From positions 1 to 21,003 of the IMG/VR virus record IMGVR_UViG_3300044620_000081: a DNA stretch of 21,003 bases; one strand, 5' to 3'. The notes below the pieces were generated by a model. That model ran no database searches and was not told the origin of the DNA. It saw only the letters and a list, made by a program, of their open reading frames with translations. The first letter of the stretch is position 1, and each line of letters begins with the position of its first letter. The position numbers and the translations under genes are program-made. Shown one piece after another: positions 3,123 through 16,124 of the stretch. Source of the DNA: a virus.

Positions 3123-5057
3123 TTATCTGTTAATGATTCTTAGCATAGCAGCCAGATCATCATGACCTTCTTTGACTTTTTCTTTTTCTTTTTGTCTTTG
3201 GTCTAGTTCTTTACCGTATGCTTGTACTTTCTTACGGAAATCCTTTTCCTGTTCAGGAGTAGTTTCTCCTTTGGAAGTTGATTTACGAGCATCGTACTCA
3301 CCAGTATCTACTTCAGTAACAACAGCTTGGTCATCAGTGTTGATAAAGTTTTCACCAACTAGATCGCCAATCTTTGCAGGACCACCAGTTGGACCCCATT
3401 GCCCTGCACGTTTCTGGTCAGCATCTAATTCCTCGTCAACCTTCTCAACATCACTGTGAGCCATACTTGGCTTACCGTTTTCAGGGTTGCGAACGCCGGC
3501 TCTCTTTTTCAAGTCTTTCAACAAGTCTTCGTCACTACCGTGACCTAATTTGTTTAATGCTTTTTGACCAACATCTTTAATCTTGTCAATGATACCTTCA
3601 TCAACAGGGGAATCGGCTAAGCCACGCTCAACCTGTTTGATCCAACCGCTAACATCACTTGAACCAATTTCGTCAACATCACCTACAAAGTCAGCTACAT
3701 CACCGATTGCGTTAGAGACTTTCTCTGGACCGTACTTTGATAATAAGTCTAGACGTTGCATTAAGATTCTACGTAGAATGGCACTAGCAACAGGACTATC
3801 AATATCGTCACCACCGTCTAATCTTCCTTCAGGAATACCTTGTGGGTTTAATGCAGTCTGACCACCGTCACCTTCTTCGGCTAATCCAAATGCTTTTAGA
3901 TTGCCGGCTTCTGTTTTTTCATTGTGAGCTAGTGTTTCTGCGCCGGCAGCTTCGTTGATATCATCATCTACATCTTCTGCTCCGCCTTCACCTGCATCAC
4001 CTGCAGTATCACCGTCGGTTTCTTCACTAGCTTCGCCACCATCGCCACCTTCAAGTAAGCTATCAGCCCACTCAGCTAGTTCTGTAACTTCAGTCATTTC
4101 ACTAATGTTCTTAGAAAGTTTAGCTAAGATTGGCATTGCAGATTCAATGCGAGGATCAACTGTTTCTTGCACAAACAATTCGTTAACAGCAGTCGTATCA
4201 CTATCGTCTTCCATCAATGATGGAGTCCATGATTCAAAGTATGCTTCGTATCCACGCTTACCAGACATACGTGATAATGTTTCACGCAATGAATTATAAT
4301 GGTTTACACCTTCATTAATTAGTTTTTGACTAGATTCATTGAACTGACCATTACGTGTAGCACGAACAAAGCCTGCCATCTTTGAATATTCTTCAACTAA
4401 GCCTTTGATGTGTTGACCACGATCATCATAAGGTGTACCGCCTTCAGCAATGTGACGAGCATAAACACGTGCAATGCCAGGCTTTGTGGTGTTCAATAAG
4501 AAACGCTCACCATTTGCATTCTCTACGAAAATACGATTGATGTTACGGTAGCGTTGTTCACCTTCTTCAATCTTGCGTGAGTGTTCGATAACGATTTTAA
4601 CTGAAGGTACAGCATCGCTATAACTAGCACTTTTACCCATTGGGTAATAACCCTCTGATACTCTTTCTTTCTTGTCCATATGTTCCCTTTGTGCCATGTC
4701 GGCTTCTAAATGATTCTCGTTGCGTAATTCAAAACTTAATTGTCTACGTTGTGCCCAGTTCTTAAGATGACTGATTAGTGCTGTCCAACTGTCAGAATAA
4801 GGTGTTCCTGATGTGTTGTCGCTTGGGCTACTAGATACACTATCACCGTAGTAAATCTTTAACTTTTTAGATCCGTCAATAGAAATCCAAACTTTACCGT
4901 AATTTTCGCCATCTTTGATAAAATCAAATCTTATGACTGCGGCTTCTTCAGGAACAGGTGTGATTTTACCTGTAGCATCCATTGGTTTTGGATTGTAACC
5001 TTTATTGTCTAAAAGATCGTATAATTTTCGTTGTAAAGCTTCTGAATTGATTGACAT
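3123..5057 (-). CDS. Large acidic phage protein downstream of the terminase, unknown function
   Basis: A 644-residue soluble protein with no membrane segment or known catalytic motif. An N-terminal folded part (about 1-115, MSINSEALQRKLYDLLDNKG) is followed by a second block (about 150-290) with IVIEHSRKIEEGEQRYRNI and GIARVYARHIAEGG. Residues about 335-400 are a low-complexity Glu/Asp/Gly/Ala stretch (SLLEGGDGGEASEE). A helical block follows (PVASAILRRILMQRLDLLSK to SDVSGWIKQVERGL), and the charged tail ends LAAMLRIINR. The blocks recall conserved proteins of marine T4-like phages that are usually unannotated or called structural. The late-type box five bases upstream of the ATG and the position after gp17 support a late, virion-related role, which is inference. 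There is no clear ribosome site. Confidence 0.85.
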   Translation of the reverse strand: MSINSEALQRKLYDLLDNKGYNPKPMDATGKITPVPEEAAVIRFDFIKDGENYGKVWISIDGSKKLKIYYGDSVSSSPSDNTSGTPYSDSWTALISHLKNWAQRRQLSFELRNENHLEADMAQREHMDKKERVSEGYYPMGKSASYSDAVPSVKIVIEHSRKIEEGEQRYRNINRIFVENANGERFLLNTTKPGIARVYARHIAEGGTPYDDRGQHIKGLVEEYSKMAGFVRATRNGQFNESSQKLINEGVNHYNSLRETLSRMSGKRGYEAYFESWTPSLMEDDSDTTAVNELFVQETVDPRIESAMPILAKLSKNISEMTEVTELAEWADSLLEGGDGGEASEETDGDTAGDAGEGGAEDVDDDINEAAGAETLAHNEKTEAGNLKAFGLAEEGDGGQTALNPQGIPEGRLDGGDDIDSPVASAILRRILMQRLDLLSKYGPEKVSNAIGDVADFVGDVDEIGSSDVSGWIKQVERGLADSPVDEGIIDKIKDVGQKALNKLGHGSDEDLLKDLKKRAGVRNPENGKPSMAHSDVEKVDEELDADQKRAGQWGPTGGPAKIGDLVGENFINTDDQAVVTEVDTGEYDARKSTSKGETTPEQEKDFRKKVQAYGKELDQRQKEKEKVKEGHDDLAAMLRIINR

Positions 5058-5078: not shown

Positions 5079-6638
5079 TTAATTCAATACAGCAAAGAAG
5101 GGCAACGGGGCAATGTATTCCTCATGGTCTCGCATATGATTCTCAAGGTTATAGTGATAATCACTCAGAACCTGCAAAATACGTACAATCAATAAGCTAG
5201 CCATGACCAAATCGTCAGTATCGCCTATTTTTGCCGCATAACTTCCCCCGGATGCTACAAATGCTTTTAATTCTGAAATTAATCCAAAGCTATGAATAGT
5301 CATCTTTTTGCTCTCTACTAGTGTTTTAAACTTAGCACAGGCTGCGAGTTTGCTCTTGTTAGTAGTGTTGAATCCCCTACGATTCTTCCCGGCTTCGCTC
5401 AAAAAGATACCAGGAATATTACTCTCACCGTATTCATTTAACGAAACAATAGCTGCCTCACCGATACTGTTATTTTCTATTGAATAGTACAAACTGTTTG
5501 GTTCGTTCGTGCATTCAACAATGTATTTGTTAATTTGTGCAATCAATTTAATCTGTGTAGGAATATCTGTCTTGTTGTGCTTCCACTCACCTACTTGTGT
5601 AGTTGTATTTGCTTCAAAGATTTGAATAGCGGCTGGGTCACCACCTGTACCTAAGCTTGGGTCTAGTGCAACTGCATATATGTTCCCCTTCTCGGGCTTC
5701 TTATACCAACGAACTTGCCCCATCCTAGTTGCAGGCTCTTTACCTTCTAACATGATTAGTGTGTTTGGATTGATAAGTGTTTCATCAGCAATAATGAACT
5801 CACAACCAATCTCTCGATTGAAACGATCCTCACCAAGTTGAGCCTTCATTTCGTCAGCCCACTTTTGATCTCGTCCAGGTTGTTCGGTCCAATAAGCACG
5901 ATAGGATCTGAAACCGTTAACACCTATCTCTGTCTTGTTACCATACTCATCTTCTGTCTTGTTAGCACCCTTCCAGATCAAAGCAAACTGGTCTTCGTCA
6001 CTGTTTGGAGTACTTGTGATAATTGCTTTACCACCAGTTGACAATGTAGGCGTAATAGCAGTCCAGAATTCTGTCGCAATAGAAGGTCGCACGAACGCAA
6101 ACTCATCAAGATACAATAGTGAAATAGACATACCTCGACCTGTGTTTTCAGTAGTTGTAGCTGAAACAATACGTGAGCCGTTCTCAAAGTCTAATGAGCC
6201 TTTGTTGTATGTAGTAACACCGGCTTTAATGTGATCGGGACATGCTTCATATGCGTAACGAATACGTTGCATAATTTCCTGAGCACCTGTATACTTGTGA
6301 GCCGCAATAAGAATTGTACTATCGGGAACAAACATAGCATACCATAAGAGGTAGCCTGCAGCCGATGTTGACTTACCTGACTGACGAGGCATTAATGATA
6401 TAGAAAAACGATATCTATGATATGTATCAATTAATCGTTCTTGGTATTCCCATGGGTGATACAACATGCTACCGCGTGTTGGGTGCTGTATGTAAAAGAA
6501 ATTATCCATAAAGTACAGATAACCAGTATTAGGATCACAGCACTTGATAAATTCTTGCAGATCCTTATCAGTTTTAAATTGCGTCTTTTTATACGGATCT
6601 TTAACTAATGAAGGTGCGTTGTTGGTAGGTTTACTCAT
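5079..6638 (-). CDS. 17: Terminase large subunit (gp17-type packaging ATPase and nuclease)
   Basis: A 519-residue two-domain packaging motor that cuts concatemeric DNA and pumps it into the prohead. The ATPase domain has Walker A MPRQSGKST at 83-91, Walker B LLYLDEF at 174-180 with catalytic Glu179, and the coupling motif TSTPN at 208-212. The RNase H-fold nuclease has Asp326 (ALDPSLGTGGD), Glu388 (SIENNS) and Asp475-Asp476 (GDTDDLVMA), the usual acidic cluster. Length is slightly below T4 gp17 (610 residues). There is no Shine-Dalgarno sequence upstream; instead a late-type box (GCTAAATA) ends five bases before the ATG, and a second box lies 22 bp further up. The 91-residue gene upstream may be functionally linked. 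Confidence 0.96.
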   Translation of the reverse strand: MSKPTNNAPSLVKDPYKKTQFKTDKDLQEFIKCCDPNTGYLYFMDNFFYIQHPTRGSMLYHPWEYQERLIDTYHRYRFSISLMPRQSGKSTSAAGYLLWYAMFVPDSTILIAAHKYTGAQEIMQRIRYAYEACPDHIKAGVTTYNKGSLDFENGSRIVSATTTENTGRGMSISLLYLDEFAFVRPSIATEFWTAITPTLSTGGKAIITSTPNSDEDQFALIWKGANKTEDEYGNKTEIGVNGFRSYRAYWTEQPGRDQKWADEMKAQLGEDRFNREIGCEFIIADETLINPNTLIMLEGKEPATRMGQVRWYKKPEKGNIYAVALDPSLGTGGDPAAIQIFEANTTTQVGEWKHNKTDIPTQIKLIAQINKYIVECTNEPNSLYYSIENNSIGEAAIVSLNEYGESNIPGIFLSEAGKNRRGFNTTNKSKLAACAKFKTLVESKKMTIHSFGLISELKAFVASGGSYAAKIGDTDDLVMASLLIVRILQVLSDYHYNLENHMRDHEEYIAPLPFFAVLN

Positions 6639-7662: not shown

Positions 7663-8389
7663 TAGTTTTTATATTTGGAAATCCTAGAGGAGGTTGTCCC
7701 CAAAGTGCAATTGTTTTTGGATCTAAAATATGAGTCATCCACTTCCACCACATTTCATGCAATTGGTCAGCGGCTTTTGGCAATTCTATTCCAAACTTAT
7801 CAGCTAACAACACACGTAGATTTTCGCTTCCATTTTTGGTAAAAAGATTTACGGTCTTAAACATGAAGCCGTTACTATCATCAATTTTTATGTAACTATC
7901 ATTGTGAATGCTACCTATTTCAGTAGGGAAATGATAATCTCTCATAGGGCTATGATATTCATAGGTTGTTATTCTATGATAGGGTAGCGTACCCTCTTCT
8001 GGATAATCCAAAATGATACCAACATAATCTTTACCCAACTCTTTCAATATTTCAGTATCGTATGCGTGGTAAAAATTAAAGATGTGCCCTTGAATCAATA
8101 GCTTTCTGTCATTATTCAATACTTGTTCTTTGGGGATATATTCATATAATCTATCTATATGATGTATGTCCTTACCAACATGAGCATTTACATATTTAGG
8201 GAAAGTTTTAGTATATGGAACTTTTTTGTATTGTTCTACAAGCCAAATAGGATAATCTTTATCCACCTCTACTCTAGGAGCAAAATCTTTACAGAGGCTA
8301 ATCATGTTACACACATGATTGCCACCGGTTGCTCCGGGATATATCACGTAGACATATTTTGCCTTTTGAAAGTTATCCCGGATAGTCAT
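7658..8389 (-). CDS. P-loop protein, possibly sulfotransferase-like
   Basis: A 243-residue protein with a glycine-rich loop VIYPGATGGNHVCNM near residues 15-29. It follows a short beta strand, as in the PAPS-binding loop of sulfotransferase-like folds or the Walker A of a P-loop kinase. Lysine is missing from the loop, so an ordinary NTPase is unlikely. Aromatic residues are frequent (YHAYDTEILK, LHEMWWKWM). The start codon overlaps the stop of the methyltransferase by one base (TAATG), so the two are translated together and may modify the same substrate, such as a glycan or a virion protein. The sulfotransferase idea is tentative; no downstream 3'-phosphate-binding motif was confirmed. Confidence 0.75.
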   Translation of the reverse strand: MTIRDNFQKAKYVYVIYPGATGGNHVCNMISLCKDFAPRVEVDKDYPIWLVEQYKKVPYTKTFPKYVNAHVGKDIHHIDRLYEYIPKEQVLNNDRKLLIQGHIFNFYHAYDTEILKELGKDYVGIILDYPEEGTLPYHRITTYEYHSPMRDYHFPTEIGSIHNDSYIKIDDSNGFMFKTVNLFTKNGSENLRVLLADKFGIELPKAADQLHEMWWKWMTHILDPKTIALWGQPPLGFPNIKTR

Positions 8390-9081
8390 TACTTAATATC
8401 TAATGGTCTCTGTTTAGTTGCCATGATGCAGAAATACTTTTCTTTCATAGTAACTTGCTCGCCTGTTTCTTGATTTGGCATACTGATATCAAATTCTAGT
8501 ACGTTAAAACTATTGATATCAAACCCGGTACGATGCAACAACGCTGCCAATTGATTCTGTCCTAAGATACTGTAGTGATTCAAGTTATATTCATGTCGGC
8601 GATCACAGTCAGGAGCGGGTACTTCAATATAAATCTTGCCACCTTGCTTCAACACACGATTGTATTCCATCAAGCTAAAAATAGGATATGGGCTATGTTC
8701 TAATGCATGACGCAAGAAGATGAATTCTACAGATTCATCATGGTAACCTTTTTCCTGCGGTAAGAATGTCAAGTCATATTTCTTAATAGTATGACCTTTC
8801 TTTTCACAAATGTCAACGTCACCCGGGCTCAATGTTACACCGGTTAAGTCAGTATAACCTCTAGTTTTCATTTCATCTAAGAAGTAACCAGGACCGCAAC
8901 CTAAATCTAAGATTCTAGTATTCTTGGGTAGATTTAACGGGTCAATATATGTTTTTACAACTTCACGTGTCATGTTCTCATGCATCGGGCTATCGCCCTC
9001 GTCATAGATATGGGCTGTGTATAGCCACTCGTTGTAAAATTTTAATTTGATTAGGTCGAGAGTGTTGTTGATATCAATCAT
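8389..9081 (-). CDS. SAM-dependent methyltransferase (class I)
   Basis: A 230-residue class I Rossmann-fold methyltransferase. Motif I, ILDLGCGPGYF, is at about residues 57-67; the acidic end of strand 2 is replaced by a GVTLSPGDVDIC segment. Motif IV-like FIFLRHALEHSP and the post-motif RVLKQGGKIYIEVPAPD are typical of the Methyltransf_11/23 group. The small-molecule type of fold suggests methylation of a sugar, lipid or small metabolite rather than DNA, but the substrate cannot be read from sequence. A CAGGA ribosome site lies before the ATG. A TATAAATT box lies 12 bp upstream. Coupled to the P-loop gene downstream. Confidence 0.88.
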   Translation of the reverse strand: MIDINNTLDLIKLKFYNEWLYTAHIYDEGDSPMHENMTREVVKTYIDPLNLPKNTRILDLGCGPGYFLDEMKTRGYTDLTGVTLSPGDVDICEKKGHTIKKYDLTFLPQEKGYHDESVEFIFLRHALEHSPYPIFSLMEYNRVLKQGGKIYIEVPAPDCDRRHEYNLNHYSILGQNQLAALLHRTGFDINSFNVLEFDISMPNQETGEQVTMKEKYFCIMATKQRPLDIK

Positions 9082-9132: not shown

Positions 9133-9510
9133 TTATTTTCTCTTGTAGCCCTTAAAAGGCTTAACTATACTGTGAGCATTTGTATCAGGTAGTTCTTCGC
9201 TGTCTAAATCACCGTTATTTAAATCTATATATTCCAAGCCGGCTGCTTTATATGCTAACTTCAGCATATCTTGTTCTTCTTTAGTGTAGGGGTGCGTAGT
9301 ATTGTGTTTACCTACCCAGCTTTCTGCAGGCATTTCAATTGGATTTATACCATCACTACTTGCGACAGCCATCATTAAACGATATAAATCATAGTTTCTA
9401 TCATAGCTATCTATTTTTTTTGAAAAAATATTTAACCCGCGGGTAGATTGTTGTTGACGTTTGGATATTTTACCCATCCTAGCTTCGGATATAAATTCAT
9501 TTGCTCTCAT
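9133..9510 (-). CDS. Small protein with T4 internal-protein-like capsid-targeting N-terminus
   Basis: A 125-residue protein starting MRANEFISEARMGKISKR. The block EFISEAR-G closely resembles the N-terminus of T4 internal proteins II and III as I remember it (MKTYQEFIAEARVG). There the first ten residues target the protein into the prohead and are removed by the gp21 protease after an (I/L)-x-E site; here ISE then Ala fits that rule. The middle has YDLYRLMMAVASSDG and ESWVGKHNTTHPY; the end is VKPFKGYKRK. Closely similar proteins are, from memory, frequent and unexplained in marine T4-like phages. It overlaps its paralog by ATGA. Packaging in the head and injection are inferred, not shown. Confidence 0.88.
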   Translation of the reverse strand: MRANEFISEARMGKISKRQQQSTRGLNIFSKKIDSYDRNYDLYRLMMAVASSDGINPIEMPAESWVGKHNTTHPYTKEEQDMLKLAYKAAGLEYIDLNNGDLDSEELPDTNAHSIVKPFKGYKRK

Positions 9511-9902
9511 TTTTTATATCCTTTAAAGGGCTTGAGAGTTGATTGTATATTGGTGTTAGGTATTTCATTACTATTAGCAGCGGTGACTAATTTTTTACCA
9601 GTCTTTCCTACTTTTTTCAAGGTTTTGTCAATAGTATTACCTAGGTCTTCATCGAATTCAGAAGAAACTAATTGATGCTCTCCCCAAGATGTTTCTGATT
9701 GAAATTCGTTTTTAAATTCATTTTGGACACCATCGTCTTGGCCGCCCTCGCCTCTGACGGCAGCAAACGCTACGCCAAATCTATATAACTCATAGAAATC
9801 ATTATTTTTTAAATCAGGCATGATATAGGTGTTGGGCAAAGAGTAAGATGCAACTGTTAGTCCATCTGTTCGTTGCTCAGTGATAAATTCTTTTGCTCTC
9901 AT
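9507..9902 (-). CDS. Paralog of the adjacent capsid-targeting-like protein
   Basis: A 131-residue protein starting MRAKEFITEQRTDG and ending LKPFKGYKK. It shares both termini with the 125-residue protein downstream, plus a middle block YELYRFGVAFAAVRG that matches YDLYRLMMAVASSDG. The remainder has diverged, with a Gly/Asp loop (GEGGQDDG) and a Lys-rich segment (KTLKKVGKTGKKLV). The ITE at residues 7-9 also fits the T4 gp21 cleavage rule, although Gln rather than a small residue follows. The start overlaps the stop of the 179-residue virion gene by one base, so all three genes are translated together and probably late. A head-internal or injected protein is my inference. Confidence 0.86.
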   Translation of the reverse strand: MRAKEFITEQRTDGLTVASYSLPNTYIMPDLKNNDFYELYRFGVAFAAVRGEGGQDDGVQNEFKNEFQSETSWGEHQLVSSEFDEDLGNTIDKTLKKVGKTGKKLVTAANSNEIPNTNIQSTLKPFKGYKK

Positions 9903-10441
9903 TACGCAGGCTGTTCAGTTGTTAAAGGAATGCTATTTTCAGTGCCTAATACATCACCGGAGAATCCTTCTAGACCTAGTGGCATTCCGAGTACTACTTC
10001 ATTGAAAGTAATTTGAGCCGATACAAAATGCTCTATGGTGGCATTTGCATTGGGGTTGACTAAAATTCTTACGTTACCACCCACTAAATCCATATTATAA
10101 TTGGATACCACATAGTTACCAAACATAGTAGTTGCAAATGCAGTAAACTTTACATTATTTGCGCCGTTATTAATTGCCGCATTGAGTGTGATGTTTTGAC
10201 TGTTTGCTGTATTTGGCAAGTATGAATTTATTTGAAAAACACCCTGAGTGAATATGTTTGCGTCAGTCTCAAAAATAACTTGATTAGCTGTATTTCCAGT
10301 AGTGATACCAAGATACGTGAATACACCAGTCGAAAATATTTCTGCAAAGTTGTTATTGATTTTTTGAAATGCTGTACGTAGCGGGTCACCTTCACCATCG
10401 TTGGGTAATGAGCCTATGTTAATTATTTCCGGGGTGGTCAT
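9902..10441 (-). CDS. Phage virion protein, fibre or baseplate type
   Basis: A 179-residue protein opening MTTPEIINIGSLPNDGEGDP and continuing LRTAFQKINNNFAEIFS. This NDGxGDPLRxAFxKINxNFxE motif is a hallmark of N-terminal attachment segments in fibres and baseplate-associated proteins of T4-like marine phages. Residues 45-150 are a beta-rich, Asn/Thr-rich region (QNITLNAAINNGANNVKFTA) without enzyme motifs, probably a small beta-sandwich or helix region. It has AGGAT as ribosome site and a canonical late box (GATAAATA) 22 bp upstream of the ATG. It leads the operon with the two capsid-targeting-like genes. Confidence 0.82.
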   Translation of the reverse strand: MTTPEIINIGSLPNDGEGDPLRTAFQKINNNFAEIFSTGVFTYLGITTGNTANQVIFETDANIFTQGVFQINSYLPNTANSQNITLNAAINNGANNVKFTAFATTMFGNYVVSNYNMDLVGGNVRILVNPNANATIEHFVSAQITFNEVVLGMPLGLEGFSGDVLGTENSIPLTTEQPA

Positions 10442-11292: not shown

Positions 11293-12354
11293 TCATTCTC
11301 CGAAGAATTCATCCACCTTCTCGGCTATATAATTGACTTCAGAATCAGTCAATTCCGGATAGATCGGTAAGCTAATAACGCCTCTTGATAGCATTACGCT
11401 TGTAGAAAGCATGTCCGGCTTTGTCATACCGTTAGTTGTAGGTAAGTCACCTAGCACATACTCATAATGACGTTTACAATCAATTCCGTTAACCATCATG
11501 TGAGTAAGCAATGAGTTACGATCAGGTAAGTACATTACAAACTTCTGATTGGCATGTGGATTATTTGTATCAGATAAGCAGGACAATGGTAACTCACTAA
11601 ATCGTTCGCACCAAAATTTAGCAATCGTTTGTCTACGTATCTGCCATGCATCAATATGTTTGACCCTGACCAACAGTTGAGCACAATCTTGCTCACTCAT
11701 CTTAGAGTTAGTGCCCACATCATAGAAATCAGGTTTGTTGTTGTCTCTATACCTTGCGGCATATAGATAGAGTTTTTCATCGTTTGTTACGATAGCACCA
11801 CCGTTGCCACTAGCATTTAGATTCTTAGTAGGGTCAAAACTTATTGCCATACCGCTACCAACGTTGCCGTCCGCTACTAACCAATGCTGTGCTCCGTCAA
11901 CTATAACACCGTGACTGTCTTCATATCTTGCTTCTGGCCATGGTCTACGTCCTGCAAATCCCATAAGACAATCATATATACCACTAGTTCGCGGTTCACG
12001 ATTCATTATACCATATTTGTCAGTGTCACCTAGTTCAACGTCCCACCCTGCAGTCAAAAATGCATTGAGTGTTGCAGGATAAGTTAAGTTAGGTAAACGA
12101 ACTTTAGGATTACCCTGCATCGTTTGTGTATGCTTAATCTTTTTGTAACGTGCAATAATCTCTAGTGCTTGTGTGCCTGAATGCACTGTTACTGCATACT
12201 TGGTTTTAGTTTTATGCTTCAACCATTCTTCGAACGAGCGGGTATAATGCCCGTTCATTAAAATGCCATCTTTTAATGCACGGTGTGTTGCATCTAGTAA
12301 TTCTTCACCGATGTTCTTATACTGTCTTACTAGACCGAAGTGTGGTATATTCAT
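11293..12354 (-). CDS. DegT/DnrJ/EryC1-type PLP sugar aminotransferase
   Basis: A 353-residue fold-type I PLP enzyme of the DegT/DnrJ/EryC1 family, which transaminates keto-sugar nucleotides. Ser59-Gly60-Thr61 in VHSGTQALE bind phosphate. VDGAQ (about 152-156) holds the Asp that pairs with the pyridine nitrogen and the stacking Gln. The Schiff-base Lys is Lys177 in SFDPTKNLNASGNGGAI. The C-terminal part ends at PIYPELTDSEVNYI, the usual family end. All key residues are present, so it should be active, and its partner is probably the adjacent epimerase/dehydratase. Start overlaps the radical SAM stop (ATGA). Amino-sugar synthesis is inferred from family and context. Confidence 0.9.
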   Translation of the reverse strand: MNIPHFGLVRQYKNIGEELLDATHRALKDGILMNGHYTRSFEEWLKHKTKTKYAVTVHSGTQALEIIARYKKIKHTQTMQGNPKVRLPNLTYPATLNAFLTAGWDVELGDTDKYGIMNREPRTSGIYDCLMGFAGRRPWPEARYEDSHGVIVDGAQHWLVADGNVGSGMAISFDPTKNLNASGNGGAIVTNDEKLYLYAARYRDNNKPDFYDVGTNSKMSEQDCAQLLVRVKHIDAWQIRRQTIAKFWCERFSELPLSCLSDTNNPHANQKFVMYLPDRNSLLTHMMVNGIDCKRHYEYVLGDLPTTNGMTKPDMLSTSVMLSRGVISLPIYPELTDSEVNYIAEKVDEFFGE

Positions 12355-13559
12355 TTAAGTTTGTATAGGTTGGGGTTAACATCATTTAATGATTGGCTTC
12401 GATGTTGATCCAATATGTCATTAAATTCAAAGTATTCTGTTAATTTTTCCGTGTAATCTACATCCTCAAAACATTTATTTTTTAGAGCAGATAATTTATT
12501 ATGAAATATAGGCTTTTGATATTTGCAGTTAGCACTTACCCATTGTTCAATTAATTCCCAAGACTTAATTTTAAAATCTAATGGTAAGTTTCTTGCGTTT
12601 AGATAATCAGGGTTCTCTAGTATGATAGGGAAAAGTTCGAACGCACATCGTTGTAGTTTTCTATTAATAGATTCAAAGTATTCAAATAATTCAGTGATTC
12701 TATTTAGATTCGTTATCTGTATCACTGGCGACAATCTAATACTAATATTGTTTCCTAGACTTAATAACGTTTGTAAGTTACTATCAATCTGTGACCACTT
12801 ACTTGGATATCTCAAGTACTCTTGCATATCATCGTATCCATCAATGCTTGCAAAGAATATAACAAACTTAAACTGTTTAATCATTGCATAGAATTTAGGA
12901 TTAGTGTTTGTCATATTGGTGTTAAGCATTAACACAATATTCTTGCTATAACCCAAGTCAATTAATTGTTCTAGTAATTCAAAGTTCTTTTGATTAATAG
13001 TGGGCTCTCCGCCGGTGACATACAGCATTTCAATATTATCTAGCTGTTTTTCTAAGTTATCAGAAAATGTTTGAGTTTCATACCATGAGTTAATATCTAC
13101 TTCAGTTAAATCATGAAACTTTGATATAGTAGTATGTGACAATTCATTAAATTCTTTTGCAAGTTGAGTGCTATTTCTAGGGTTGCAACTTCTACAGTTT
13201 AAATTGCACAAGTTACCAAACCGCAAGTCAAAGTAATGAATCTTTACATCAGCTACAGGTTCAGTGTACTGTCTGTTTTTCCACATGTCATTGTACATGA
13301 TACGTTGACTTGCACCGCCGATCTTTTCATGTTGATAGCATTGACTGCACCCATGTACTTCCTCCCCATTCAACATCTGTGTTCTTATGTTAATGAAGTC
13401 GGTACTGTTATATATTTCTTCAATAGTATCATAACCTAAATTGTATTTTGTTCCGTCATTTTTCTTGATAAAGTCCTGTGACACACAACAAGGTTTTATA
13501 CTACCGTCAGGGTCTACTGTTAGGTTAAGCCACGGCAAAACACAAAAAGTTTTAGACAT
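12351..13559 (-). CDS. Radical SAM protein with N-terminal auxiliary Cys region (twitch/SPASM-like)
   Basis: A 402-residue radical SAM enzyme. The cluster motif CNLNCRSC (Cys118, 122, 125, CxxxCxxC) follows a conserved FDLRFGN strand, and TGGEPTIN at 182-189 is the SAM-binding GGEP motif. Ahead of this is a Cys-rich region (Cys6, Cys24, Cys25, Cys71, Cys74) with the pattern FCVLPWLNLTVDPDGSIKPC, which in related proteins holds an auxiliary Fe-S cluster and occurs as a C-terminal SPASM/twitch domain. Phage and bacterial proteins of this form are called twitch-domain radical SAM proteins and have unproven substrates. It overlaps the epimerase gene by eight bases. The context suggests sugar or peptide modification; neither is shown. 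Confidence 0.9.
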   Translation of the reverse strand: MSKTFCVLPWLNLTVDPDGSIKPCCVSQDFIKKNDGTKYNLGYDTIEEIYNSTDFINIRTQMLNGEEVHGCSQCYQHEKIGGASQRIMYNDMWKNRQYTEPVADVKIHYFDLRFGNLCNLNCRSCNPRNSTQLAKEFNELSHTTISKFHDLTEVDINSWYETQTFSDNLEKQLDNIEMLYVTGGEPTINQKNFELLEQLIDLGYSKNIVLMLNTNMTNTNPKFYAMIKQFKFVIFFASIDGYDDMQEYLRYPSKWSQIDSNLQTLLSLGNNISIRLSPVIQITNLNRITELFEYFESINRKLQRCAFELFPIILENPDYLNARNLPLDFKIKSWELIEQWVSANCKYQKPIFHNKLSALKNKCFEDVDYTEKLTEYFEFNDILDQHRSQSLNDVNPNLYKLK

Positions 13560-14523
13560 TCTTCTTTGTCCAAAAATCAGAAGTACTTAACCAATCATAA
13601 TACTTTTGAAATCCTTCTTCTACATCTACCTTAGGATCGTAGCTAAAATCTCTACGAGCGGCATCAATGTTCAATGCCCCGCGACTTGGGAAGTCTGCGT
13701 CTTTATCTCGTACATTGATAGTACCTTTACCTGCTAATTTAACTGCAAGATTGGCTGCATCAAGTAATGTCCTACTATGTGATTTGGTAATATTGTAAGT
13801 CTTGTTTGCGGTATTATCAGATAGTGCGGCACCAACGATACCATCTGCGGCATCCTCTACATAAGTAAAGTCTAATGTCTCCCCGGCACCATTAACATTG
13901 AGAGTGCCACCACGCATCGCCGTAAGCATGAACTTAGCGATGACACGATCCTCAACATCAAGTGGACCATATACAGCACTAGGTCTAATAATTGTTCCAA
14001 CAAGGCCATCACGCCTGCAATAATCTCTAACAAGCCATTCTCCTGCTAATTTCATAATACCATATTGACCTTGAGGGTTACATACTACATCTTCTGTAAC
14101 ATCGTCAGTGAAGTCGCCATACACCATTGAACTACTGATATACACGAACTTGCGAACATCATATTTTTTGCTTGCTTCCAACAAGTTGAGCAACCCTTCG
14201 CTCATAACACGACTCCCCCATGCAGGATTCGCATTGACTACTTTTTGTCTTGGGAAGCTAGCCATATGAATTACAATCTCTGGCTGCTCTACATTGAACA
14301 CATGGTCAACTGCTTTAGCATCACAAATGTCTCTATCATGGATATAGCTATCTACTGCAATTTTCTTTCTACGTTCAGCCATCAAGTAATCAATTTCATC
14401 TTGGGGTATGATACCGTAGTTTGTTTGCGTATCCATAATAGATACTAGATGACCTCGGTCCTGCAGTCGCTTAACTACATTGTGACCTATGAGTCCCAAT
14501 CCGCCTGTTACTAAAATGTTCAT
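13552..14523 (-). CDS. NAD-dependent epimerase/dehydratase (extended SDR)
   Basis: A 323-residue extended short-chain dehydrogenase, the family of UDP-glucose 4-epimerase and dTDP-glucose dehydratase. The NAD-binding loop GGLGLIG is at residues 7-13, with MDTQ at the end of strand 2 favouring NAD. Catalytic residues are Ser130-132 (YISSSMVYGD) and the Tyr154-x3-Lys158 pair in QYGIMKLAGEW. The substrate-binding half contains RPSAVYGP and NVNGAGETLDFTYVEDAADG, typical for nucleotide-sugar enzymes. It probably makes the keto- or epimerised sugar for the DegT-type aminotransferase further along the operon. The exact sugar is unknown. Starts within ATGA of the 95-residue gene. Confidence 0.92.
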   Translation of the reverse strand: MNILVTGGLGLIGHNVVKRLQDRGHLVSIMDTQTNYGIIPQDEIDYLMAERRKKIAVDSYIHDRDICDAKAVDHVFNVEQPEIVIHMASFPRQKVVNANPAWGSRVMSEGLLNLLEASKKYDVRKFVYISSSMVYGDFTDDVTEDVVCNPQGQYGIMKLAGEWLVRDYCRRDGLVGTIIRPSAVYGPLDVEDRVIAKFMLTAMRGGTLNVNGAGETLDFTYVEDAADGIVGAALSDNTANKTYNITKSHSRTLLDAANLAVKLAGKGTINVRDKDADFPSRGALNIDAARRDFSYDPKVDVEEGFQKYYDWLSTSDFWTKKNV

Positions 14524-14807
14524 TTAAATTTCAATTCAAAAAATGTTATTTGCTCGTCAGTGAGGTCTGCTCTTATTTGATACTTGTAACCATATGTGCT
14601 TATGTCTGCGTGACGATGCCAACTTGGTTTATCATAAGCATTCTCCATCACCCAGCTACCTGCTTCGCTTCGTTCCCAATCAAATATTGGGCCGGCGGCA
14701 TATATATCAGGGTCATCTACATCGCTCAGTCTGAATTCATGAACGATGTGTGTTGATGTTATAATATCGCCCTTGTCAGACGGCCATATTCGCTTTGATT
14801 TGCCCAT
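14520..14807 (-). CDS. Small conserved phage protein between thyA and the epimerase, unknown function
   Basis: A 95-residue soluble protein beginning MGKSKRIWPSDKGD, with the core HEFRLSDVDDPDIYAAGPIF and SWHRHADISTYGYKYQI. The HEFRLSDVDDPDxYA block is one I associate with an unnamed family that is widespread in phages. It contains several His and Asp residues and two conserved Trp, but no motif I can assign. Its 5' end overlaps the 3' end of thyA by 32 bases in another frame, and its stop overlaps the epimerase start (ATGA), so it is expressed together with both. No membrane segment or signal. Confidence 0.85.
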   Translation of the reverse strand: MGKSKRIWPSDKGDIITSTHIVHEFRLSDVDDPDIYAAGPIFDWERSEAGSWVMENAYDKPSWHRHADISTYGYKYQIRADLTDEQITFFELKFK

Positions 14808-15675
14808 GACTCTCGTAGTTTTCTAAGTGAATGTCTTGCATTGTCATTTCAAAGATGTTGTTCTTTTGTGAGTTCAACATCAGTGTAGGTGCGGGGAATT
14901 CAGTACGTGACAACTGTTCTTTAACTTGCTCAACGTGGTCTTTGTATATATGAGTATCACCCGTACTAATAATCAACTCACCTACTTTCAAACCGCAGTG
15001 ATGTGCAATCAAATGAGTGAGTAAAGCGTAGCTAGATATATTAAAAGGTAAGCCAAGAAACACATCCACGCTACGCTGGTACATATGACAAGATAGTTCT
15101 TTATTTTTGTTGACATAGAATTGACTCATAACATGACAAGGAGGCAATGCCATTTGATCTAATTCACCAACGTTCCATGCACTCATAATATGTCGGCGAC
15201 CATTAGGATCTTTAATCAAACCCTCAAGTAAGTTTGAAAGTTGGTCTACTTCTGTGCGGTCAACTGCGAGGCGTGTGCCACCTTTATGTGCCGGACCCAT
15301 GTCTTTTTCAACCGTGTCTTTGTTCCAGTGACGCCATTGTACACCATAGACCCTGCCGAGATCACCCTCGAACTGCGCTTTTGGTTTCCAATACGGCGCA
15401 AGCGCATTCGGGGTCCAGATAGTAGTCTTTCCTTCACTTGTACCGTGGGTAAGTTCTGCCAGTCTACGTTCATCACTAGAGCCTTCAATAAACCAGAGAA
15501 GCTCACCGACGCAAGCTTTCCATGCAAGTTTCTTAGTAGTGATTGCGGGAAAGCCCCTACGCAAATCAAAGCGAAGATTACGGCCAAAAACACTATAGGT
15601 GCCAACACCAGTTCTGTCATCTTTAAGTTCTCCATTGTCTAGTATGTCTTGTAGTAAATCGTGATATTGTTTCAT
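14776..15675 (-). CDS. thyA: Thymidylate synthase (ThyA)
   Basis: A 299-residue folate-dependent thymidylate synthase (dUMP to dTMP with methylene-tetrahydrofolate), which raises the dTTP supply for phage replication. Key features: DDRTGVGT with Arg21 near the N-terminus, catalytic Cys180 in ALPPCHVMSQFYV, and the RSVDVFLGLPFNI block (201-213) that binds dUMP and folate, followed by STGDTHIY. The open frame extends to a TTG at 15687, but the ATG at 15675 is preferred: it gives the usual MKQYHDLLQDIL start and an ATGA overlap with the folA stop. Length is slightly above E. coli ThyA (264 residues) because of an insert near residues 85-105 and 120-140. It regenerates through the adjacent dihydrofolate reductase. 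Confidence 0.96.
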   Translation of the reverse strand: MKQYHDLLQDILDNGELKDDRTGVGTYSVFGRNLRFDLRRGFPAITTKKLAWKACVGELLWFIEGSSDERRLAELTHGTSEGKTTIWTPNALAPYWKPKAQFEGDLGRVYGVQWRHWNKDTVEKDMGPAHKGGTRLAVDRTEVDQLSNLLEGLIKDPNGRRHIMSAWNVGELDQMALPPCHVMSQFYVNKNKELSCHMYQRSVDVFLGLPFNISSYALLTHLIAHHCGLKVGELIISTGDTHIYKDHVEQVKEQLSRTEFPAPTLMLNSQKNNIFEMTMQDIHLENYESHGQIKANMAV

Positions 15676-16124
15676 TTTCTTTTCCAAATTTCATATGAGT
15701 GGTCGGTATGTTCTTCTTTAAACCAACACACAAATTCTTTTTCTAATTTTACTATATCTATAAAAGTATCACAAGTATATTTGGTAAACGTTCTTGATAA
15801 ATGTATTTCGTCTATTAGATGCCAACTACTGTTAACTAACTTTGCACCGCCGATAAGCCATACATCATGCAAATCCATAGTGTCTCTGGCTGGTAAACTA
15901 GTTAGTGTAGTGATTCCATCTATATGTTGACTAGTCACTACTACGTTAATGCGATTAGGTAAAGGTTTCTTAGGTAGGCTGTCCCAGGTGTTACGTCCCA
16001 TCAGTATTACTTTACCTGTAGTCAATGCCTTGAATCTTGGCAAATCGCCCTGAATGTTAGTCCAGGGCAATTTACCATCAAAGCCTATTCCTCCTTTAGG
16101 ATCACAAGCTATAATTAGTTTCAT
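15672..16124 (-). CDS. folA: Dihydrofolate reductase
   Basis: A 150-residue dihydrofolate reductase that reduces the dihydrofolate produced by thymidylate synthase. Trp21 and Asp27 (PWTNIQGDLPRF) are at the E. coli positions; Asp27 is the proton-donating residue. MGRNTWDSL at 42-50 and WLIGGAKL at 89-96 are the NADPH-binding motifs. The C-terminal part (IDEIHLSRTFTKYTCDTFI) is the expected beta-sheet. The protein is slightly short compared with the 159-residue E. coli enzyme but has all landmarks. The ATG overlaps the stop of the 98-residue gene, and its stop overlaps the thyA start, so folA and thyA are made in step. Confidence 0.95.
   Translation of the reverse strand: MKLIIACDPKGGIGFDGKLPWTNIQGDLPRFKALTTGKVILMGRNTWDSLPKKPLPNRINVVVTSQHIDGITTLTSLPARDTMDLHDVWLIGGAKLVNSSWHLIDEIHLSRTFTKYTCDTFIDIVKLEKEFVCWFKEEHTDHSYEIWKRK

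Follow-up and report, generated by a model that had tools for sequence, protein, structure and literature searches.

A head-loading role is proposed for a short N-terminal tag, M-R-A-x-E-F-[I/V/L]-x-E, borne by two tandem small proteins encoded in a 21,003-base virus record (IMGVR_UViG_3300044620_000081; this whole stretch, probably a fragment of a larger genome, is hereafter called the window). The tag is likely (probability about 0.8) to be a capsid-targeting propeptide working like the capsid-targeting sequence (CTS) of the phage T4 internal proteins, and packaging of its bearers with cleavage after E9 is likewise likely. Both open reading frames (ORFs) lie on the minus strand, and the coordinates and N-termini given by an earlier sequence-only reading were confirmed: protein 1 (9133..9510, 125 residues) begins MRANEFISEARMG (longer reading MRANEFISEARMGKISK), and protein 2 (9507..9902, 131 residues) begins MRAKEFITEQR (longer reading MRAKEFITEQRTDG). 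Codons 1–9 of the tag occupy 9484..9510 (minus) in protein 1 (MRANEFISE, identified from the sequence and its match to T4 IPII), with the predicted gp21 cut after E9 followed by ARMG, and 9876..9902 (minus) in protein 2 (MRAKEFITE, identified from the sequence), also with a predicted cut after E9. Under the proposed mechanism, the tag would bind the internal core during prohead assembly, a gp21-type protease would cut it after E9, and the mature proteins would remain inside while DNA fills the head and then leave with the DNA. The tag would serve the phage as an address label for cargo in general, on many proteins unlike one another. The window pair would be its most often seen cargo, made up of constitutive proteins of the head interior and not of effectors specific to a host. 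What seems new is the variant form of the motif, the many cargo types that bear it among uncultured T4-like phages, and the putative link of environmental tags to IPII and IPIII. No report of an MRAxEFIxE tag was found in the literature by title or abstract start, and none of the seven papers found to contain the letters MRAREF, MRAKEF, MRANEF or MRASEF was phage-related by its title.

The similarity to T4 internal-protein starts exceeds chance. As translated from AF158101, IPII begins MKTYQEFIAEARVGAGK, IPIII MKTYQEFIAEASVVKAK, and IPI MKTFKEFTSTTTPVSTITEAT; the T4 start cited in the sequence-only reading is that of IPII, with which protein 1 has E-F-I-x-E-A-R-[VM]-G in common. When the 10-mer EFISEARMGK was scored on 278 T4 ORF starts (278 entries, with one gene entered twice), IPII (36) and IPIII (27) came first, followed at 25 by an ORF that lies over tRNA genes and has no annotated coding sequence. 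So that the T4 proteins were not picked by hand, the same starts were scanned with a tag profile built from residues 5–12 of 38 sequences, each representing a different body cluster (the window family among them). This profile ranked IPII first (13.5) and IPIII second (12.3), ahead of gp61.1 (11.4) and a next score of 6.7, and its best score was reached by one of 45,386 internal T4 windows. With the core EFISE alone, the next T4 protein after IPII, IPIII, and gp61.1 is Inh, the annotated inhibitor of gp21. The start of Inh (MIDKDYIAEL; locus L206, 12328-13001) contains DYIAE, which is like the tag core, as if mimicking a substrate. The protein ranked third in the profile scan, gp61.1, is annotated as hypothetical (AF158101 18966-19130, minus; locus L570, 267-431); it starts MKTFKEFIKED and may be an unrecognised CTS-bearing T4 protein.

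According to PMC9026906, the first 10 residues of IPIII are enough for packaging, its residues 4 and 7 being important for targeting and its residues 8 and 10 for processing, and gp21 cleaves after L/I-x-E (section 2.5). Three of these IPIII residues have counterparts in the tag (7 in F6, so that IPIII F7 aligns to Phe, 8 in I7, and 10 in E9), whereas residue 4, Tyr in T4 and Ala in the tag, does not correspond. The I-x-E site that had been noted at the propeptide end is present in both window proteins. Tag and CTS are alike in the N-terminal EFIxE with Ile at P3 and Glu at P1 (the third and first residues before the cut), in Lys/Arg at position 2, in being a short propeptide found on a number of small proteins that are dissimilar and mostly basic (isoelectric point, pI, 9.56 for IPII and 9.65 for IPIII), and in the gp21-type protease that large tag-bearing records encode. 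They differ in that the tag starts MRA-, has a Met-to-EF spacing one residue shorter, and stands on far more cargo types; for its bearers, we infer packaging, cleavage, injection, and any function after injection. A tblastn search of 50,697 phage records (E up to 1) gave no match to either window protein, and neither had a PHROG match; as judged by these comparisons, the window proteins are not homologues of the T4 internal proteins themselves.

Across the viral_contigs collection, MRAxEFIxE gave at least 120 matches and the shuffled motif MARxEIFxE gave 10, while a wider tag pattern was absent from all 50 random control records; this shuffled-motif scan together with the T4 profile scan rules out a chance match. 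The tendency of matches to open an ORF of at least 50 residues was not discriminating (218/226 true matches vs. 8/10 shuffled ones). A set of 194 unique MRAxEF starts was gathered from the window, from homologue loci, and from pieces of tag-bearing records, leaving the later residues free. In this set, 191 starts have I, V or L as residue 7 and 189 have E as residue 9; the starts come mostly from the window family, for which some seeds lay in the tag itself. The invariance of M1, R2, A3, F6, and E9 in the 71-row alignments was not used, the rows having been preselected for F and E. Synonymous codons for Arg, Ala, Glu, Phe, and Ile vary within the tag; selection is therefore taken to act on the tag protein, and a control element at the DNA level is rejected on the same ground. 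One tag-bearing record, G117, holds seven tagged genes within about 12 kb (L524, 16660-19191; L525, 265-8544), and also near-tag starts (MRIKELLEAVE, MKIKDIISED, and MRITELLEAVE) that hint at a looser form of the tag.

A gp21-type prohead protease (PF03420, which also detects the T4 enzyme) is encoded in 27 of the 37 tag records of at least 100 kb, including all 21 of at least 150 kb; the ten without it measure 100–149 kb. It was found in 7 of 50 random control records and in none of the four of these that reach 150 kb (Fisher p 8e-5, with this small control of n = 4); a single shuffled-motif record, tested likewise, lacked it. Its His and Ser motifs (LGExxHP and GVSSRG) align and persist in T4, in Pseudomonas phage PA5oct, and in five relatives, and their His and Ser residues are presumably catalytic. 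The protease expected by the sequence-only reading is thus encoded in the tag records of at least 150 kb, among them the 249,606-base virus record G001, which is close to the window; the window, probably a fragment, has none. Between gp21 and gp22 of G001 lies a homing-endonuclease-like ORF (L341, 752-1378; GIY-YIG-like by eye).

Further evidence for the predicted cut comes from gp23 of these phages. In 27 of 28 hits, LxE of the gp23 propeptide precedes a SSAGTTTAGNIATLN-like sequence; the remaining hit is incomplete. Two small tagged proteins on the minus strand (L267, 11641-11838; L277, 7403-7597; both phrog_17311, function not assigned) read EFIKE-NASVGATSSGSVAT and EFIKE-TASAGATTSGNIAV, respectively, to be compared with YLKE-NASAGSTSAGNIAT in the gp23 of L357. 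Because gp23-like sequence follows directly after FIKE, the FIKE of the tag is predicted to stand at the expected gp23 cut position. A similar start, MKITQIISETTAGCVATVAMP, occurs in G001 at 230077.

Behind the tag, the cargo is diverse. The 414 tagged proteins collected from tag and homologue loci fall into 40 body clusters by BLAST of residues 14 onward, and the window family accounts for 315 of them; without a false-positive cluster (MKLDFVAEVW), 39 clusters are left. Bodies of different clusters show no mutual similarity by BLAST, and some clusters, such as the ADP-ribosyltransferases (ARTs) or the GNATs among themselves, may be related below its reach. Of 20 bodies compared with Pfam, six scored above the curated cut-off (three GH19, forming one cluster and one of them with LysM; GNAT; ADPrib_exo_Tox; ART-PolyVal), two fell just below it (ParB_N and a second ART-PolyVal), and the remaining twelve had no or only weak matches. 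By eye, cluster 2 and L146 show a metallopeptidase-like HExxH motif. Tagged bodies are often basic, with pI above 8.5 in 25 of 38 vs. 46 of 220 ORFs of G001, which suggests bodies that, as in IPII and IPIII, suit packing with DNA. Domains related to tagged bodies occur in cyanophages and others; in S-SSM5, S-SRM01, MA01, and Dfl-JY45, the inspected relatives have related domains, yet without the tag, and the ART, L205, and L267 bodies had no match in the phage collection. One 96-residue basic tagged protein (L145, 3739-4026, minus) has a body that matches 488 phage records, mostly of cyanophages, and that in S-SRM01 forms the end of a longer untagged protein.

Two known kinds of injected or packaged protein invite comparison. 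Like T4 Alt, a head-packaged ADP-ribosyltransferase, some tagged proteins are ADP-ribosyltransferase-like (PF03496 and PF18760); unlike it, they span 128–200 residues, and the window proteins are not ARTs. The Alt propeptide, given as 7 residues in PMC9026906, was compared with the tag by length only. Polyvalent proteins are proposed to be injected, according to Iyer et al. (2017) (PMC5512222), and overlap with the tagged set in ART-PolyVal, GNAT, ParB-like, and metallopeptidase-like (HExxH by eye) domains. The tagged proteins are, in contrast, mostly short and united by a common start, not by fusion into one chain; the window proteins, at 125 and 131 residues and without a known domain, lack the several disparate domains per chain that define a polyvalent protein.

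For the window proteins themselves, the strongest alternative, which we hold at slightly short of even odds, is that they are packaged and cut as proposed, yet act as accessory proteins in the structure or assembly of the prohead core and are not injected effectors. A tandem tagged pair 350–425 nucleotides apart recurs in 25 of the 37 large tag records (the family of each pair being assumed), the homologues of the window proteins diverge to as little as 34% and 43% identity in the chosen alignment sets, and T4 IPIII is linked to core assembly in the literature. A PA5oct protein, EST35_0150, points weakly the same way: it starts MKINDIITE, adjoins the portal gene in the gp67 position, and is annotated as a structural protein with electrospray ionization tandem mass spectrometry (ESI-MS/MS). 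It resembles the tagged proteins in Ile at P3 and Glu at P1 and in its place in a head-gene cluster with gp21; it differs in being a likely core protein rather than cargo, and the looser motif is near chance level in PA5oct, with three matches barely above the control of two. The second loose match there, EST35_0271, has no ESI-MS/MS note; such notes, read for stretches of the genome, also stand on FtsH, DNA ligase, and MazG and are no strict proof of presence in the virion. Against a core role, some other tagged bodies are enzymes without an evident assembly function, and gp21 already has neighbours in the gp67 and gp68 positions.

The sequence-only reading had taken the window proteins to be head-packaged effectors. 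Other tagged proteins, such as the ARTs, are plausible effectors; for the window pair this role finds little support, since the tandem arrangement recurs so widely. That the two proteins are injected counter-defence effectors like T4 IPI is doubtful: it would fit a tag held in common with ADP-ribosyltransferase and other polyvalent-type domains, and the injection proposed for polyvalent proteins in PMC5512222, but the pair is conserved rather than a variable locus, phage records, PHROGs, and solved structures gave no informative match, and no defence-like neighbours were seen by eye (no defence library was searched). Profile searches against solved structures returned nothing better than E 0.06 for either window protein, which is uninformative, and AlphaFold2 models of both were too poor for use (predicted template-modelling scores of 0.36 and 0.43). 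Because the two small proteins are conserved as a pair, protein 1 being basic and protein 2 acidic, a constitutive internal head component is suggested more than a variable counter-defence factor.

It is improbable that the tag instead directs localisation or stability in some way unconnected with the head, its likeness to T4 being convergence; in favour of such a signal are the untagged gp21-positive control records and the mid-size tag contigs described below. Several observations weigh against a capsid-targeting propeptide. IPIII Y4, the aromatic residue of the T4 CTS, aligns with a one-residue shift to the Ala of the tag. The predicted mature part of protein 2 is acidic (pI 5.42). MRxxEF was not found in the seven cultured relatives searched, and looser motif matches there were little above a reversed-pattern control (14 vs. 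6). The seven gp21-positive control records lack the tag, so gp21 does not imply the tag, although these are pieces of 38–77 kb. Furthermore, gp21-type protease was not found in the 21-kb window record, nor in any of 36 tag contigs of 30–100 kb, a lower rate than among the controls. The latter absence is probably due to the distance between tag and protease: in the 27 records with both, the tag nearest to gp21 (linear distance, strict pattern) lies 36–225 kb away, with a median of 82 kb. A source of these mid-size contigs in small phages without gp21 is disfavoured by this distance and by their T4-like genes. Of the 46 tag records searched that lack gp21, 20 carry T4-type gp17 (13 of the 36 mid-size contigs and 7 of the 10 records of 100–149 kb), the other 26 being unplaced, and replication genes were recognised by eye in G092 and G117 (clamp-loader-like in both, DNA-polymerase-like in G092 as well) and not in G102.

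The sequence-only reading as a whole is supported in part, and several independent tests favour its capsid-targeting proposal. For the propeptide stand the dissimilar bodies and, also against a signal foreign to the head, the retrieval of IPII and IPIII by the profile, gp21 in 21 of 21 large tag records, and the gp23-like junction directly after FIKE. That all tagged proteins are one diverged family retaining its N-terminus by plain homology is highly improbable: the largest cluster does include most tagged proteins (315/414, both window proteins among them) and the ARTs and GNATs of other clusters are perhaps mutually related, but the bodies match different Pfam folds and those of different clusters lack BLAST similarity.

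Beyond the window pair, there is a somewhat better than even chance that MRAxEFIxE serves a large uncultured group of T4-like giant phages as a general address for loading the head, such that any bearer would be packaged, trimmed by gp21, and injected; the motif would then by itself list the injected proteome, including new effector families, and predict gp61.1 as an unrecognised T4 member. Proteins injected with phage DNA shape the first minutes of infection, and we know of no sequence rule for spotting them outside the close kin of T4. If the address holds, injection could be predicted from one short motif for many proteins of uncultured giant phages now called hypothetical, with ADP-ribosyltransferases, acetyltransferases, and metallopeptidase-like proteins among them, and the T4 CTS would be one case of a widespread cargo-loading scheme.

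Within the window, protein 2 is encoded by the upstream gene of the pair, and the two ORFs share 4 nucleotides (9507-9510), at the stop of protein 2 and the start of protein 1. Because both end in KPFKGYK and belong to one BLAST cluster, the two are taken as paralogues. The predicted mature part of protein 1 (116 residues) is basic (pI 8.77). Their relatives in viral_contigs were drawn from the best 80 of 238 stretches for protein 1 and the best 80 of 123 for protein 2. For protein 2, among the matches listed, identical copies occur in two shorter contigs, and the closest homologue in a large record is that of G001 (95% identity), in which much of the window gene order is also present.

The window is placed among the T4-like phages because it encodes a T4-type terminase large subunit, gp17 (5079..6638, minus), with 32% identity to T4 and 50% to PA5oct; by such comparisons, its source is a distant member of the T4-like phages, and its closest cultured relatives are giant phages. 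A head-associated virion structural protein (3123..5057, minus) matches PHROG 13484 (head and packaging) at 5.9e-11. The tagged pair is flanked upstream by an ORF with a tail-fibre/baseplate-connector-like N-terminus (9902..10441, minus; PHROG 677, 8.9e-8) and downstream by an ORF that by eye is S-adenosylmethionine (SAM)-methyltransferase-like (8389..9081, minus), and this order is kept on both sides in G001. Farther along, positions 11293-16124 hold a cassette recognised by eye as sugar aminotransferase, radical-SAM, NAD-epimerase, thymidylate synthase, and dihydrofolate reductase genes.
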